From NCBI RefSeq assembly GCF_003925875.1, contig NZ_AP019309.1, positions 2,666,001-2,730,000 on the forward strand: a stretch of DNA of 64,000 nt. Reading direction: 5' to 3'. The notes under the pieces are model-generated. The model was not told the DNA's origin. It worked only from the letters and a program-made list of their open reading frames with translations, and did not search any database. Of this stretch, positions 56,758-62,668 are shown piece by piece. The DNA is from Intestinibaculum porci. Its GTDB lineage: Bacteria > Bacillota_I > Bacilli_A > Erysipelotrichales > Coprobacillaceae. The first letter of the stretch is position 1. Each line of letters starts with the position of its first letter. The position numbers and the translations under genes are program-made.

Positions 56758-56960
56758 CTACCCGCAACTAAAGTCGCAGGCTTGCATGACGGTGCGGGGC
56801 GGTGTTCTCCGCCATGGCATCGGCATACAGCTTACCCAGATACAGCCAGGCTTACAGAGTTTCCGCAGAAACAGTGCAGAGGTCGGCCAGTTAGAGGGCG
56901 GTTCCCTAGCGAGTTGCCATGCTAGAGGGGATATTCATCCCATACTATATAGGATCAAAG
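56758..56960 (-). ncRNA. Probable omegaRNA of TnpB
   Basis: About 200 GC-rich, structure-rich bases lie between the tnpB stop and the element end, where TnpB guide RNAs are encoded. The terminal hairpin CCTGCGAC, TTTA, GTTGCGGG closes it; the guide would be the flanking bases below 56757. Inferred from position and composition. Confidence 0.55.
56761..56780. repeat. IS605 right-end hairpin
   Basis: CCCGCAAC, TAAA, GTCGCAGG: an 8-bp stem including G-U pairs in the single-strand form. Confidence 0.7.
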
Positions 56961-58223
56961 ACTCTCAAGAGCCTTCGCTAGAATGTTCTTTGCAGCATTG
57001 GTGTCACGTACATGATGTGCACCACATGCCGGGCAGTCCCACTCACGCACTGACAGCGGAAGCTTCTGATCTCCGGTCATGACATGACCGCATACGCTGC
57101 ACGTCTGCGTAGTGTACTGTGGTGCAACGAGTATGACGTCTCGTCCGTACATCTCGCCTTTCTGCTTGAGCATGGTCAGAAGTGTCCGCCATCCGGCGTC
57201 GCTTATGGCTGCTGCAAGGCAATGATTTTTTACCAGATTGCGTACCTTAAGATCTTCCGCGGCAACCAGATCGTGGCTTTTAATCAGCTGCTTTGATACG
57301 AAATTAAGGTAGTCGGCTCTCTGGCGGGCGGTTTTTCTGTGAAGATAGGCGACCTTCTGACGCATCTCCTGGTAGTTTCTGCTATTACGAAGCTCGCGCC
57401 CGTCCTTTTTTGCCTGATTGGCTCGCCGACTCATTTTCTTCTGCGCCTTGGCGAGCTTAGTCTGAATTTTCTTCCGGCATCGCGGATTCTCAAACGATCC
57501 GCCTTCCGAATCATTGACAAGATCAATAAGGTTGAGATCAATGCCAACCTGCGATCCGGTTTTCGGAAGCGATTCGACGAAGGGGTCATCTGATGCGATC
57601 TGCAGCGATACCCAGTACTCGCCGACGGCATCCCTTGAGACAGTTACCGTTCCGATGCGCGTTTGACCGCTGTGACTGAACAGCTTATCGATAATCTTAG
57701 GCGAGCCGCTGCACCGGATCCTTCCGATGATCGGAAGCTTAAGATGCTTTCTGTCAAGAAAACGGATGCTGCCGCCATTCAGACCTTCGTGACCACTCTG
57801 ATAGTGGTTTGAGGTCTGATAGGACTGCTCATACGATTTCTTGTGAAAGGTCGGAACGCCGGTATGACGCTCGCGCATGTTTTTCCATGCGGCCGTGTAG
57901 TTCTTTTTTGCCGTGGCGATCACCTGACCGTCAACTTCCGGCTCATTTAAGAACGGCAGCGTATTTCTGATATGTGCCATGTCAGAACCGCTTCCGTTCA
58001 GTTCACGGATCTTGAGCGTAACATCTTCAAGACGCTTTCTGTCGGCAGGCACAATATCAGCTGTTTTCTTAAGACGGTAAGTTTCCTTATCGACACCTAC
58101 AAGAAGATTGTAGACAGCACGCTGTGCACCATCATTGACAGCAATAATATGTTTCTGAGCATCTGATGGGTATATTTTAAGGACCACTCCATAATGATAA
58201 TTCATCTGGCTGCATTTTTTCAT
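56955..58223 (-). CDS. tnpB: TnpB RNA-guided nuclease
   Basis: A 422-residue TnpB (Cas12 ancestor family). RuvC acidic residues: GIDLNLIDLVND (Asp), LVAAEDLKVRNL (Glu), VRDTNAAKNIL (Asp); the zinc finger is CSVCGH with CPACGAHH. All catalytic positions are present, so it may be active. ATG 58223 has GGAGGAG 6 bases upstream. TnpB uses an omegaRNA made from its 3' end to cut the donor site and keep the element in the genome. Confidence 0.92.
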   Translation of the reverse strand: MKKCSQMNYHYGVVLKIYPSDAQKHIIAVNDGAQRAVYNLLVGVDKETYRLKKTADIVPADRKRLEDVTLKIRELNGSGSDMAHIRNTLPFLNEPEVDGQVIATAKKNYTAAWKNMRERHTGVPTFHKKSYEQSYQTSNHYQSGHEGLNGGSIRFLDRKHLKLPIIGRIRCSGSPKIIDKLFSHSGQTRIGTVTVSRDAVGEYWVSLQIASDDPFVESLPKTGSQVGIDLNLIDLVNDSEGGSFENPRCRKKIQTKLAKAQKKMSRRANQAKKDGRELRNSRNYQEMRQKVAYLHRKTARQRADYLNFVSKQLIKSHDLVAAEDLKVRNLVKNHCLAAAISDAGWRTLLTMLKQKGEMYGRDVILVAPQYTTQTCSVCGHVMTGDQKLPLSVREWDCPACGAHHVRDTNAAKNILAKALESL

Positions 58224-58318
58224 AACGGCTCCTCCTTCCTATAGCTTAATTATAACACATATGTATTTGATTATCCACTATAATAATGCTATTATATAAG
58301 AAGGAATGAGGTGTACAT

Positions 58319-58774
58319 ATGAAAAGACATATAGACAGGATAAAAGGTGCTGTATATGAGAGAGGTTATGTATATAACTTTCACTTTCATCTGATATGGG
58401 TCACCAAATACAGACGTCAGGTGTTTACTACGCCTGCCCTTGTGAATGAAATGAAAGATATTCTTCGCCATATTGCTGAAACATCAGATGTCAGGATTGA
58501 AGAGATGGAGGTCATGCCAGATCATGTCCACCTGCTTGTATCATTCAAGCCTAAATATGCGCCAACAAACATTGTCAAGAATCTCAAAGGAGCTAGTGGG
58601 AGACTGTTTTTCAGCAGGCATCCCGACATCAGAGATCAAAGTTTCTGGGGCGGGCATTTATGGTCTAACAGCTACTATATGAGCACTTTGGGAAATATGA
58701 GCCGTGATGTTGTAGAACTGTATATCCAAAACCAGTACTCGCCGAACAAAAAAGGCAATTCCTCCCCTGATTGA
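58319..58774 (+). CDS. tnpA: IS200-type TnpA transposase (Y1 HUH)
   Basis: A 151-residue single-strand transposase. HUH motif in PDHVHLLVSF, HLIWVTKYRRQVF near the start, and the catalytic Tyr in VVELYIQNQY. Slightly longer N terminus than usual. ATG 58319 follows AATGAGGTG. The stop lies in the left-end hairpin. The frame is intact. Confidence 0.92.
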   Translation: MKRHIDRIKGAVYERGYVYNFHFHLIWVTKYRRQVFTTPALVNEMKDILRHIAETSDVRIEEMEVMPDHVHLLVSFKPKYAPTNIVKNLKGASGRLFFSRHPDIRDQSFWGGHLWSNSYYMSTLGNMSRDVVELYIQNQYSPNKKGNSSPD

Positions 58775-58795: not shown

Positions 58796-59456
58796 ATTCT
58801 TCATTGAAGACATCAATCACCTTGTCAGCTTCTTGCACTGATAAAGCCCCTAGTATCCCCGTATGATCCTTTAACAAGTGCTCTGCGCAATAATCAGCAT
58901 CAATCATGACTTTACGCTGATTGCGATCTTTGCTTAAAAATCATCAAGTCCTTCTCTTGCGCTAATAAGCGCAGCGCCTTTTGTGCATCCTGAACCTTAT
59001 ACTGCGGCGCTTCGTAAAAGACCATTTCCTCTTTTAAGATCTGATGACAAAGCACATCAATTATGATATTTGTAATATCATAACGAATACGATGCTTCTT
59101 CGCCATCTCATCACCGATCTCTTTGAAACCTAGAAAACAGATAATATTTTTCATGTACAGATAACCAATATTAAAAAGGCGCGGTTCACAGGCAATCAAA
59201 TGATTCGGATGAAAGACGAGAGTCATCCCCGCCTTTGCTTGCTGGTCGGCCTCTCGCAAAGCCTCCACATATTCCTGTAAATGTTTTATGACTTCATCAT
59301 AAGAATCGTACTGATACTTTTCCCTTAAGCTTGCCAAGTTGCCAAGCTTTTCAACAACATACGTTGATTTCTTTTTAACTTGGGATCATAAAAATCATCA
59401 ATGATATAAAATGATGCAGAATTTTTAGATTTCGTTACTTTTAAACGTTTGGCCAT
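58796..59456 (-). pseudogene. N-terminal fragment of IS1634-type transposase
   Basis: From ATG 59456 it encodes MAKRLKVTKSKNSASFYIID, aligning with the start of the intact transposase, frameshifts near 59372, continues as VVEKLGNLASLREKYQYDSY to a stop at 58912, and then enters a different frame (DADYCAEHLLKDHTGILGAL) that I cannot align to the intact protein. The catalytic core is gone. It ends at the IS605 element. Confidence 0.75.
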
Positions 59457-59531: not shown

Positions 59532-59544
59532 TCCCAAAAATCTT
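59532..59544. repeat. 13-bp direct repeat, left flank of IS30-like element
   Basis: TCCCAAAAATCTT, identical to 62509-62521, sits immediately outside the left inverted repeat. It has the position of a target duplication. Confidence 0.7.
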
Positions 59545-59773
59545 GCTCAATTGAAAAAGTAAATTCCGCTTAAATTTAAATTCCGGTTTTGTGTAGTTTT
59601 GTCTTACAAATGCCTTTATTAAAGGAATTCGTTAGCGCTTATTAGAAATTCAGAGGTCAAAACATGTCTGATTTTACTAAATTGATTGCTAATAATGAAA
59701 AAAGATTGTAGCGAAAAATGTGGAACTTCGCACCTCACATTTCTGTGAAGGACTTATTTCCACATTTTTTTGA

Positions 59774-61165
59774 TTACTTTTTCTTTAAAACTGAAGGCTT
59801 TAACTCCACCTTGTCTTTATCGATTTGGCTATAGCCTTTGCACTTTAGAGCCTCATAGATCTCCGGCATCATGAAAGCCGTGTTTTCATAGAGACTTCTG
59901 CCGCCATAGAGCTTGCGGGAGTAGGAGTTGATATTATTAACGGCTCTGTTAAGGGCCTCCTGACTTACAAGCCCAAGCTTGCGGAGATTCTTTTTCTTAG
60001 GGCAGATATATCTTAAAACAAGATGCTCGTTCTCAAGTGATCCCTTCTGATTTGAATGCATCGCATCACAGTAGAAGATTCGGCATGTTCCTGACTCTCT
60101 GTCTTCGAATTCATCGGCCAGCGAGAATTCACTGCCTCTGTCAGTCAGGATAGACCCTATATTATTAATAAATACATCCGGGCCAAGCAGCTTTTCAATA
60201 TAGTCAAGGCCATTCACCATCTCCTCAGCTGTTTTTTCATCATGATAGACGGCAAGAAATACACCGCCTGGCATGATCTTAAAAGTCTGAATAAACGGGC
60301 CGTTAGAAACATCATTATAAACGGTATCCATAAGGATATAGCCGACAGGATGATCAATTGCCTGCTCGCTATCAGGCCGTTCTGCACCATCATAGAGCTT
60401 AACGCTATGATTGATGCTGTACTGTGCGGCCACAAGGGGGTTGTATTCAAGAAAGTCCTTGAATGTTCTTCCGGTTAAATAGCCGCTGTCCTTGCGCTTT
60501 CTGTACTGGTTAGCGCGTACCTTAGGCATCTTTCTTCTCTTTACCTGGTTTCTGAGCGCCAGGCTATTGATTCCAAACTGTTCAAATGCACCCTGCTCAA
60601 TATAGTTGTACAGGCACTTTTCGGAAATTTTGAGCTCAGGATGCTCGTTAAGAATTGCATACGGTGACTTGCCCTGTTCAAGCTCAGGCTTGATGATATC
60701 AGCCATCCACTGAGCCTCTGAATAGGTGAGGTTGAAGCCCATTCTCGAATCCCTAAGCATATATTCGTATGCTCTTTGGGCCACATCTGCTCTGTAGTAG
60801 TATTTTGAGAATCTGCAGCTGGGGGCTTTGGTGCAGCCGTTGCAGACGCCCGGTGATCTGTCCCTTTGATTGCATTTAAACAGGGTGTAGTCAGTGCATT
60901 CCATGAACACCTCATGGCTGGTTCTGCACTCCCGTCCTCTTGTGCACTTTTTGTAGTTGGCGCAGTCAAAGGGTGCCTTGCTTGGCGATCCTGAAGGAGT
61001 TCTGTGATTCCGAATTTCCTTAGCGACGGTAGTTGGATCTTTATGAATGGTCTTGGCAATTTGGGCCTTATTAAGGCCGCTCTTGAGACCTGCTTCAATC
61101 TTTTCTCGAAGCTCATAAGTTATGTGCTTCTGATATCCTATGGGCTTTTTAGCGGCTCTTTCCAT
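59774..61165 (-). CDS. IS30-family transposase
   Basis: About 463 residues. N-terminal helix-turn-helix of IS30 type (KIEAGLKSGLNKAQIAKTIH, TTVAKEIRNHR); a Cys-rich zinc-like region (CANYKKCTRGREC and CNGCTKAPSC); DDE core with LMDTVYND, SILTDRGSEFSL and SNQKGSLENEHL. The length is above the usual ~320-380, mostly from the Cys-rich insertion. I start at ATG 61165 behind AGGAAGG; it overlaps the small gene upstream by 17 bases. Confidence 0.88.
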   Translation of the reverse strand: MERAAKKPIGYQKHITYELREKIEAGLKSGLNKAQIAKTIHKDPTTVAKEIRNHRTPSGSPSKAPFDCANYKKCTRGRECRTSHEVFMECTDYTLFKCNQRDRSPGVCNGCTKAPSCRFSKYYYRADVAQRAYEYMLRDSRMGFNLTYSEAQWMADIIKPELEQGKSPYAILNEHPELKISEKCLYNYIEQGAFEQFGINSLALRNQVKRRKMPKVRANQYRKRKDSGYLTGRTFKDFLEYNPLVAAQYSINHSVKLYDGAERPDSEQAIDHPVGYILMDTVYNDVSNGPFIQTFKIMPGGVFLAVYHDEKTAEEMVNGLDYIEKLLGPDVFINNIGSILTDRGSEFSLADEFEDRESGTCRIFYCDAMHSNQKGSLENEHLVLRYICPKKKNLRKLGLVSQEALNRAVNNINSYSRKLYGGRSLYENTAFMMPEIYEALKCKGYSQIDKDKVELKPSVLKKK

Positions 61166-61358
61166 TCTTATCACCTTCCTGCATTACTGTTTGGTAGCAG
61201 TAATCAATTAATGTGTAGGGATAGAGTCTTCTCATTAATGCGTCCTCTTCGACTTCTGAAAGCTTTCTGCAACGTTTTTTGCCTTTCGAAGGGCGCATAG
61301 TCCCATTGATTTCTCGGCTATTGTTCTTAATAGCCGCCTTCTTTGTGATATTTGACAT
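61149..61358 (-). CDS. Small basic protein of the IS30-like element
   Basis: A 69-residue protein from ATG 61358 with AAGGAGGTG 9 bases upstream. Start MSNITKKAAIKNNSREINGT, then basic GKKRCRKLSEVEEDALMRRL, then a Tyr-rich end. Possibly nucleic-acid binding. It overlaps the transposase start, suggesting coupled translation. No family recognised. Confidence 0.6.
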   Translation of the reverse strand: MSNITKKAAIKNNSREINGTMRPSKGKKRCRKLSEVEEDALMRRLYPYTLIDYCYQTVMQEGDKNGKSR

Positions 61359-61386
61359 GTTTAATGCCACCTCCTTGATATTTTTC

Positions 61387-62322
61387 CTATTTTTTGGCGG
61401 TTTCCCGCTTCTTTACAAAGAAGTTTAACACCGTCAGGGCTGATTCACATTTTTCCCATGTTGGTAATGGGCAGGCAACATCATCGCGGAGGAAGCTGTT
61501 TTTTACGCAATCTTTGGTGAGACCTTTAGTAACGGTCATGAAACTGTTTTGATAGAAATCTTTGAAGTGATCAGCGATAAATGAGCATATAAGATTAGAA
61601 AGCAAATTATCACTCATTTTATTGATCTTAGGGGTTGCATAAAGATATTCCAGGAGTGCTCTAAGCCGACCATGAAAATCCTCAAGGCTGCTGTCGCCGT
61701 GAAAGATCTGATGCAGGTATAGAAGGATATCAAAAAGGTTTTCACGCATAAAAGGGATAATTCCCAGCGGAAACACGGCATGAGTTTTATGAAGGCTTTT
61801 GGAGTAGATGCGCTGAAGCTGAAATTCATAAGGAGTATCGTTAATGTTTACGATCTTCTTGTAATGCCCGAATTTTATCCAGTCATGTGCGTTCTCATCA
61901 GAAAAATCGGGTATTGTTCTCACAATATCCTCTGCAGAGAAGGTGTTCATGATATATGAATAGGTGGCGTTGATGAAAAGCATGATGTCATAAGCAAGTT
62001 CAGTTGATGAAAGGCAAGCTTCATAAAGCTTTTTAACCAGTCTGAAAAAGAATCTGTTATCAGAGCGCACTAAAAGGGCAACGGAAAAGTTATTGTTCCA
62101 TAAGTGGTTATTTGCGCAGTCAGGAAAGACGTGCTCAGGCTTCTGCTCTGCACTAGAAGAATTTCTAATGAGCTCTTTGAAGCATGAGGAAATCTTATCA
62201 TTGAAGGAAAAGGAACCATCACATAAATGCATATTTAAACTTTTATACTTGAAAACAGGCGGGATGTGTATTACTATCATATTGTCTTGTTGGACAGATG
62301 ATGAGAAGCTTTTCCAGGGCAT
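61387..62322 (-). CDS. Uncharacterised 311-residue protein of the IS30-like element
   Basis: Starts at ATG 62322 (MPWKSFSSSVQQDN). Soluble, helical in the second half; THAVFPLGIIPFMRENLFDI recalls a segment of IS-linked proteins of unknown function (DUF6431, from memory), which I cannot confirm. GGAGG lies about 25 bases upstream, but a three-codon ORF (ATGATGAGTTAATG, M-M-S then stop) ends on the start codon (TAATG), so coupled re-initiation is possible. It lies inside the inverted repeats, first of three co-directional genes. Confidence 0.6.
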   Translation of the reverse strand: MPWKSFSSSVQQDNMIVIHIPPVFKYKSLNMHLCDGSFSFNDKISSCFKELIRNSSSAEQKPEHVFPDCANNHLWNNNFSVALLVRSDNRFFFRLVKKLYEACLSSTELAYDIMLFINATYSYIMNTFSAEDIVRTIPDFSDENAHDWIKFGHYKKIVNINDTPYEFQLQRIYSKSLHKTHAVFPLGIIPFMRENLFDILLYLHQIFHGDSSLEDFHGRLRALLEYLYATPKINKMSDNLLSNLICSFIADHFKDFYQNSFMTVTKGLTKDCVKNSFLRDDVACPLPTWEKCESALTVLNFFVKKRETAKK

Positions 62323-62508
62323 TAACTCATCATCTTTTTTTGTCCTTACCTCCAAATCGAATTTAGTTTAACACTTTAATATCATGATAATTTTATCACA
62401 TTTTAAAATAACTGAATAACTAAATTCATAAAAAACATAAGGATTAATAAGTGAATGATAGAATTCACGTTAGAAATATCTAACTGGAATTTCGAAAATC
62501 AATTGACG

Positions 62509-62521
62509 TCCCAAAAATCTT
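62509..62521. repeat. 13-bp direct repeat, right flank of IS30-like element
   Basis: TCCCAAAAATCTT, immediately outside the right inverted repeat; 22 bases separate it from the -35 box of the tRNA-His promoter. Confidence 0.7.
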
Positions 62522-62590: not shown

Positions 62591-62668
62591 GGCGGTTATG
62601 GTGAAGCGGTTAACACACCGGATTGTGGCTCCGGCATTTCGTCAGTTCGATCCTGACTAGCCGCCCCA
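62591..62668 (+). tRNA. tRNA-His (anticodon GTG)
   Basis: Full cloverleaf: anticodon arm CCGGA, TTGTGGC, TCCGG; T arm GTCAG, TTCGATC, CTGAC; acceptor GCGGTTA with TAGCCGC. The extra G at -1 (62591) pairs with C73 (62665), the identity mark of tRNA-His. CCA is encoded. Confidence 0.97.

Follow-up and report, generated by a model that had tools for sequence, protein, structure and literature searches.

The element and its copies

The window, a 64,000-nucleotide stretch of the Intestinibaculum porci genome (contig NZ_AP019309.1, positions 2,666,001 to 2,730,000), contains near its right edge a mobile element spanning 59545-62508, between two TCCCAAAAATCTT 13-mers, and filled by three closely packed minus-strand open reading frames. 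The features of the locus, including those of a predicted antisense RNA, are as follows.

59532..59544, left 13-bp target duplication TCCCAAAAATCTT (exact pair; other copies have different 13-mers)
59545..59569, plus strand, left terminal inverted repeat GCTCAATTGAAAAAGTAAATTCCGC (from copy boundaries in the same genome; similar inverted repeats in relatives)
59774..61165, minus strand, IS30-like DDE transposase with HTH_38, Cys-rich domain and DDE core (D...D...E); ATG at 61165, Shine-Dalgarno (SD) sequence AGGAAGG
61149..61358, minus strand, ORF2, small basic protein of 69 aa counted from its own ATG; end overlaps the transposase start; strong SD AAGGAGG
61387..62280, minus strand, ORF1, 297 aa, divergent DUF6431-like protein (profile comparison; dN/dS)
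62249..62254, plus strand, -35 TTGAAA of the predicted antisense promoter
62272..62277, plus strand, -10 TACTAT of the predicted antisense promoter, over ORF1 codons 2-3
62283..62296, plus strand, small second hairpin TGTC-ttgttg-GACA
62284..62343, plus strand, predicted antisense (countertranscript) RNA, ~60 nt, fold -18.4 kcal/mol; start placed from the -10
62296..62335, plus strand, 10-bp hairpin AGATGATGAG / CTCATCATCT, then T7 at 62335-62341; predicted antisense terminator, and leader hairpin on the mRNA strand
62349..62353, minus strand, GGAGG, the sole SD-like site upstream of ORF1, beyond the hairpins
62484..62508, minus strand, right terminal inverted repeat CGTCAATTGATTTTCGAAATTCCAG (from copy boundaries in the same genome)
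62509..62521, right 13-bp target duplication (exact pair)

The inverted ends read GCTCAATTGAAAAAGTAAATTCC on the left and, as reverse complement, CGTCAATTGATTTTCGAAATTCC on the right, as an earlier note on this DNA had given them, and the three overlapping or close-set genes that it described were likewise found, all on the minus strand. Its 13-bp flanking repeats are exact at 59532-59544 and 62509-62521, with no further occurrence of the 13-mer inside the window (0 expected in shuffles). A tRNA-His gene (anticodon GTG, 62592-62668) begins about 70 bp past the right duplication, which puts the element directly upstream of that gene. To the left of the element are IS1634-like transposase remnants (58912-59456) resembling an intact 617-aa gene of L054, and the adjoining region at 56955-58774 carries a TnpB-like (OrfB_IS605/Cas12f-like TNB) gene with a divergent IS200-like Y1 transposase.

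This 3.21-Mb genome carries, the window's included, six full-length transposase genes that are 99-100% identical, together with one that has a stop and a number of diverged relatives; identity between copies at the DNA level is also ~99-100%. Four copies, the window's included, are flanked by perfect 13-bp duplications, each of a different sequence (TCCCAAAAATCTT, GTTGAGAAAGATC, CGATAAGAACAAG and CTCCATGTTTTTT), so that the repeats recur with the ends as the earlier note had proposed to check. The copy at L018 has no target duplication, and those at L014 and L017 are truncated on the left side. At L019 the element lies inside a gene, and its excision together with one 13-mer leaves an uninterrupted reading frame in which the receiver and LytTR domains are both complete. 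Because the joined flanks restore this regulator gene, the 13-mers are target duplications, and the refutation test that the earlier note had set for them was passed. On the evidence of these copies and their junctions, the element is a real, recently active IS30-like transposon. Two details of the copies are worth recording: a second right end occurs 1.7 kb past the complete, duplication-less copy (L018, 5196-6933), possibly a recombinant or nested insertion, and at the left end the base that separates the duplication from CTCAATTGA varies among copies of this genome (G, G, C, C, G), perhaps as a trace of a circular intermediate.

A transposase lineage with 13-bp duplications

The transposase is 463-466 aa long and matches HTH_38 (PF13936) at 38.5 bits, against a cut-off of 27; the NCBIfam IS30 equivalog is matched at 72.2 bits, under its cut-off of 80 (relatives score 71). 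The D, D and E columns are conserved in the transposase alignment and the DDE residues are intact; a PDB sequence search with the transposase gave no match. Eight cysteines are invariant across 12/12 aligned relatives, and since the Cys-rich stretch is kept in all of these, it counts as a domain of the family and not, as had been supposed, as an insertion of the window copy alone. Relatives of the transposase were found in 68/196 genomes of the order; of those examined in other genomes, most are elements of ~1.7 kb with a single gene. Where an inverted-repeat pair could be recognised, the duplication is 13 bp in 16 of 20 relatives, from seven genomes; the scored length is 14-15 where terminal bases match by chance. 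In place of the 2-3 bp duplication expected of the IS30 family, the length is 13 bp in four copies of this genome and in these 16 relatives.

From these comparisons, the Cys-rich domain and 13-bp duplications are not special to the three-gene form but mark a whole lineage of IS30-like elements, most of which have one gene. The earlier note's suggestion of a distinct transposon lineage stands in this sense, while its tie between the long duplication and the accessory genes does not, given the same 13 bp in single-gene relatives. The fixed duplication apparently characterises this lineage, is unusual for the IS30 family, and would arise if the DDE transposase directs strand transfers ~13 bp apart. 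IS30 of E. coli shares HTH_38 and the IS30-type DDE core with the window transposase, but makes 2-bp duplications (PMC9333248) and, unlike the window element, lacks the Cys-rich domain and accessory genes. IS1630 of Mycoplasma fermentans is closer in that an IS30-type transposase is combined with long target duplications; these, however, are variable (16, 23, 25 and 26 bp; PMC3317919), whereas those of the window lineage are fixed at about 13.

ORF1, ORF2 and the DUF6431 family

The first protein had earlier been read as 311 residues long. The start codon of that reading is ACG in four other copies of the genome (L029, L031, L032, L038), and its position falls within the leader hairpin loop; because it is not conserved, the start of ORF1 is almost certainly the ATG at 62280, giving 297 aa. 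A Pfam search with ORF1 found no family, the cut-off of DUF6431 (PF20020) not being reached. When ORF1 and two homologues were compared as a profile with the DUF6431 alignment (hhalign), homology was evident over 88 columns (probability 97.8, E 8e-13), covering the HG-Y-R ... KTHA-P-PY core; the zinc-ribbon cysteine pairs of DUF6431 are absent from the ORF1 core. The earlier description of the accessory proteins as unrecognised accordingly no longer holds for ORF1, although the kinship is a divergent one. Compared with L020, dN/dS is 0.23 for ORF1 (a 57%-identical homologue), 0.26 for the transposase and a weaker 0.62 for ORF2, whose homologue there is diverged; judged by this ratio, ORF1 is under purifying selection. 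Structure prediction, proposed earlier as a check on both accessory proteins, was of limited help: the AlphaFold model of ORF1 is of low confidence, reaching medium confidence only in a core of about residues 90-240, and a PDB fold search with it returned nothing significant.

DUF6431 itself is similar to the zinc-ribbon region at the N-terminus of ISL3 transposases (probability 94, E 1e-7). This likeness suggests DNA binding, and because of it ORF1 is probably a DNA-binding accessory protein or regulator. DUF6431 proteins are common in these bacteria, occurring in 44/196 genomes of the order with up to 24 copies each, and among the loci that we read the gene usually lies immediately 5' of a transposase gene, either of the ISL3 type or of the IS481-like type accompanied by an AAA ATPase; some loci also have tyrosine recombinases. 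The window's IS30-like element is a third type of partner. In the literature we found no known role for DUF6431, only a mention in a gene table. An array at L179, L189 and L194 that unites DUF6431, an rve transposase and tyrosine recombinases is a different kind of composite element.

The leader and a predicted antisense RNA

A 17-base motif upstream of ORF1 recurs upstream of unrelated elements at 16 sites in the same genome (at most 1 mismatch), and the reversed motif, used as control, has no sites there. A reading of TGTCCAACAAGA as a conserved coding stretch was rejected, since the frame is interrupted by a stop at this place in a related element and 19/34 leaders have an in-frame stop within 66 nt upstream of the ATG. 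DUF6431 leaders generally contain a hairpin, 50-84 nt ahead of the ATG, whose sequence changes from leader to leader. A hairpin score of at least 9.4 was reached by 25/30 leaders against 2 of 347 chimeras (0.6%) built from halves of different leaders, and by 1/31 partner-transposase starts, 1/26 single-gene IS30-like starts and 7/53 starts of long ORFs in the window. All 30 leaders differ in the 5' arm with pairing retained, which argues for compensatory change. A MAFFT/RNAalifold alignment of the leaders yielded no structure, because stems of different sequence fall out of register.

On the opposite strand, 26/30 leaders have TTGnnn-17 bp-TAnnnT with the -10 over the start codon, an arrangement seen at 0/31 partner-transposase starts and 1/59 starts of long ORFs in the window; the -35/-10 spacing peaks at exactly 17. 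For both promoter and hairpin the scoring was devised after the leaders had been inspected, so that full independence of the counts cannot be claimed. ATGATA is strongly preferred at the start of the ORF (20/30 leaders), as follows from this overlap of the antisense -10 with the start codon. L213, a leader from the same class but another order that came to light later, agrees with the pattern on hand inspection, CCGACCAAAG loop included; the L212 leader, from a different genome, departs from it. Rfam ctRNA_pT181 (RF00242) matched the antisense strand of L026, L213 and L088, all three with the loop ACUUUGGUC, at 33-38 bits (best 37.8), under the gathering threshold of 56, with E values of 0.0006 and 0.001 in short searches. 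An antisense terminator had initially been set aside for the poor T-tracts of some leaders, and was reinstated on the Rfam match and the promoter result. With it, a conserved promoter and a terminator opposite the gene start, the pair by which membership of the antisense-RNA class was judged, are found among the DUF6431 leaders.

The window leader has the loop CUUUUCCAGGG and a modest -10 (TACTAT); it had no Rfam match, and a plain promoter scan of the leader region was not above chance. Its case therefore rests on the architecture that the predicted RNA has in common with other DUF6431 leaders. Together, the leaders strongly suggest an apparent antisense-RNA gene over the starts of nearly all DUF6431 genes, ORF1 included. 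Antisense control is known for insertion sequences such as IS10, IS30 and IS200 (PMC8450116), in IS30 for the transposase (Arini 1997, as cited in PMC8450116), and human gut RNA data are enriched for antisense transcripts of IS30-family transposases, without identifying the RNA predicted here (PMC4555090).

We hypothesize, with a probability of roughly 0.75, that this is an IS30-like transposon with 13-bp duplications that is controlled much as plasmid copy number is, by an antisense RNA over the DUF6431-like ORF1. The operon would run from the leader through ORF1 and the 69-aa ORF2 to the transposase. The RNA would start at a sigma-A-type promoter within the first codons of ORF1, stop at the leader hairpin, and pair with the mRNA leader including its only SD site, blocking translation of ORF1. 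ORF2 and the transposase each have their own SD site, but because both follow ORF1 closely they may be translationally coupled to it, so that shut-off of ORF1 would lower them also. As every copy would make the same RNA, repression would rise with copy number, on the pattern of the plasmids pT181 and pMV158 (PMC5703833). We infer transcription of the RNA, repression, the mode of translation and the coupling from this arrangement; translational control is preferred over transcriptional control since no hairpin followed by a T-run was seen in the sense leader.

Alternatively, the leader may act as no more than a split ribosome-binding site, in which folded hairpins bring SD and AUG together and no antisense RNA is made. 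In 23/30 leaders an SD-like match of at least 6 precedes the hairpin (16% in shuffles), while just 2/30 have one between hairpin and ATG, and T4 genes 25 and 38 are precedents, their spacing being reduced from 27 to 11 and from 22 to 5 nt (PMC3014915). We nonetheless consider this unlikely as the whole explanation, because it leaves unaccounted for the antisense promoter with its fixed 17-bp spacing and -10 over the ATG, as well as the pT181-like loop and the T-tail on the antisense strand, and the effective SD-AUG spacing after folding varies widely. A split site and antisense control may, however, occur in the same leader. The earlier note's idea that the accessory proteins direct target choice draws on the resemblance of DUF6431 to a DNA-binding N-terminal region, but relatives without accessory proteins make the same 13-bp duplications and the duplicated sites have no evident common motif except A+T richness, making it a distinctly weak candidate; of the two roles that the note offered, we found no evidence for target choice and favor regulation, because the apparent antisense-RNA gene overlaps the ORF1 start. 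That ORF1 and ORF2 are non-functional passengers of a plain IS30-type element would fit a transposase that stands alone in nearly all relatives and a three-gene set confined to one genome (none was found in public genomes searched with ORF1 alone and with the ORF1 profile), but is highly improbable given an ORF1 in frame at its low dN/dS, a related ORF1-small ORF-transposase order in L021, and the same ORF1 family and leader type before ISL3 and IS481-like transposases.

Antisense control by a countertranscript has its nearest parallels in plasmids. Like the pT181 countertranscript RNA, the predicted RNA is short and has a terminator hairpin over the leader; pT181, however, controls repC rather than transposon genes, its loop is not that of the window, and the T-run attenuator hairpin was not seen in the sense leader here. 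In pMV158, RNAII likewise has its promoter inside the 5' coding end of repB, opposite an atypical ribosome site (PMC5703833); repB is a plasmid replication gene under copy control, and the likeness is one of arrangement. T4 gene 25 shares a hairpin between SD and AUG (PMC3014915), but no antisense RNA is described for it, and the window leader has a longer insert with two hairpins. The apparent novelty is that, in several classes of transposase, a plasmid-like countertranscript gene is found joined with a gene for DUF6431. It is tempting to speculate, at slightly less than even odds, that a countertranscript RNA over a DUF6431 start is a transferable cassette, taken up by ISL3, IS481-like (with AAA) and IS30-like elements, that limits transposition in the manner of RNA/Cop plasmid control, with the loops setting 'incompatibility groups' within a genome. 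The arrangement in any case links DUF6431 proteins to transposons and a predicted antisense RNA, and gives a direct way to test how the copy number of transposons is restrained. Elsewhere (L014, 5770-7800, and L227), an IS66-like element is apparently inserted within a leader-bearing DUF6431 gene, with the leader at G000 2016305 and the DUF6431 match at 2018892.
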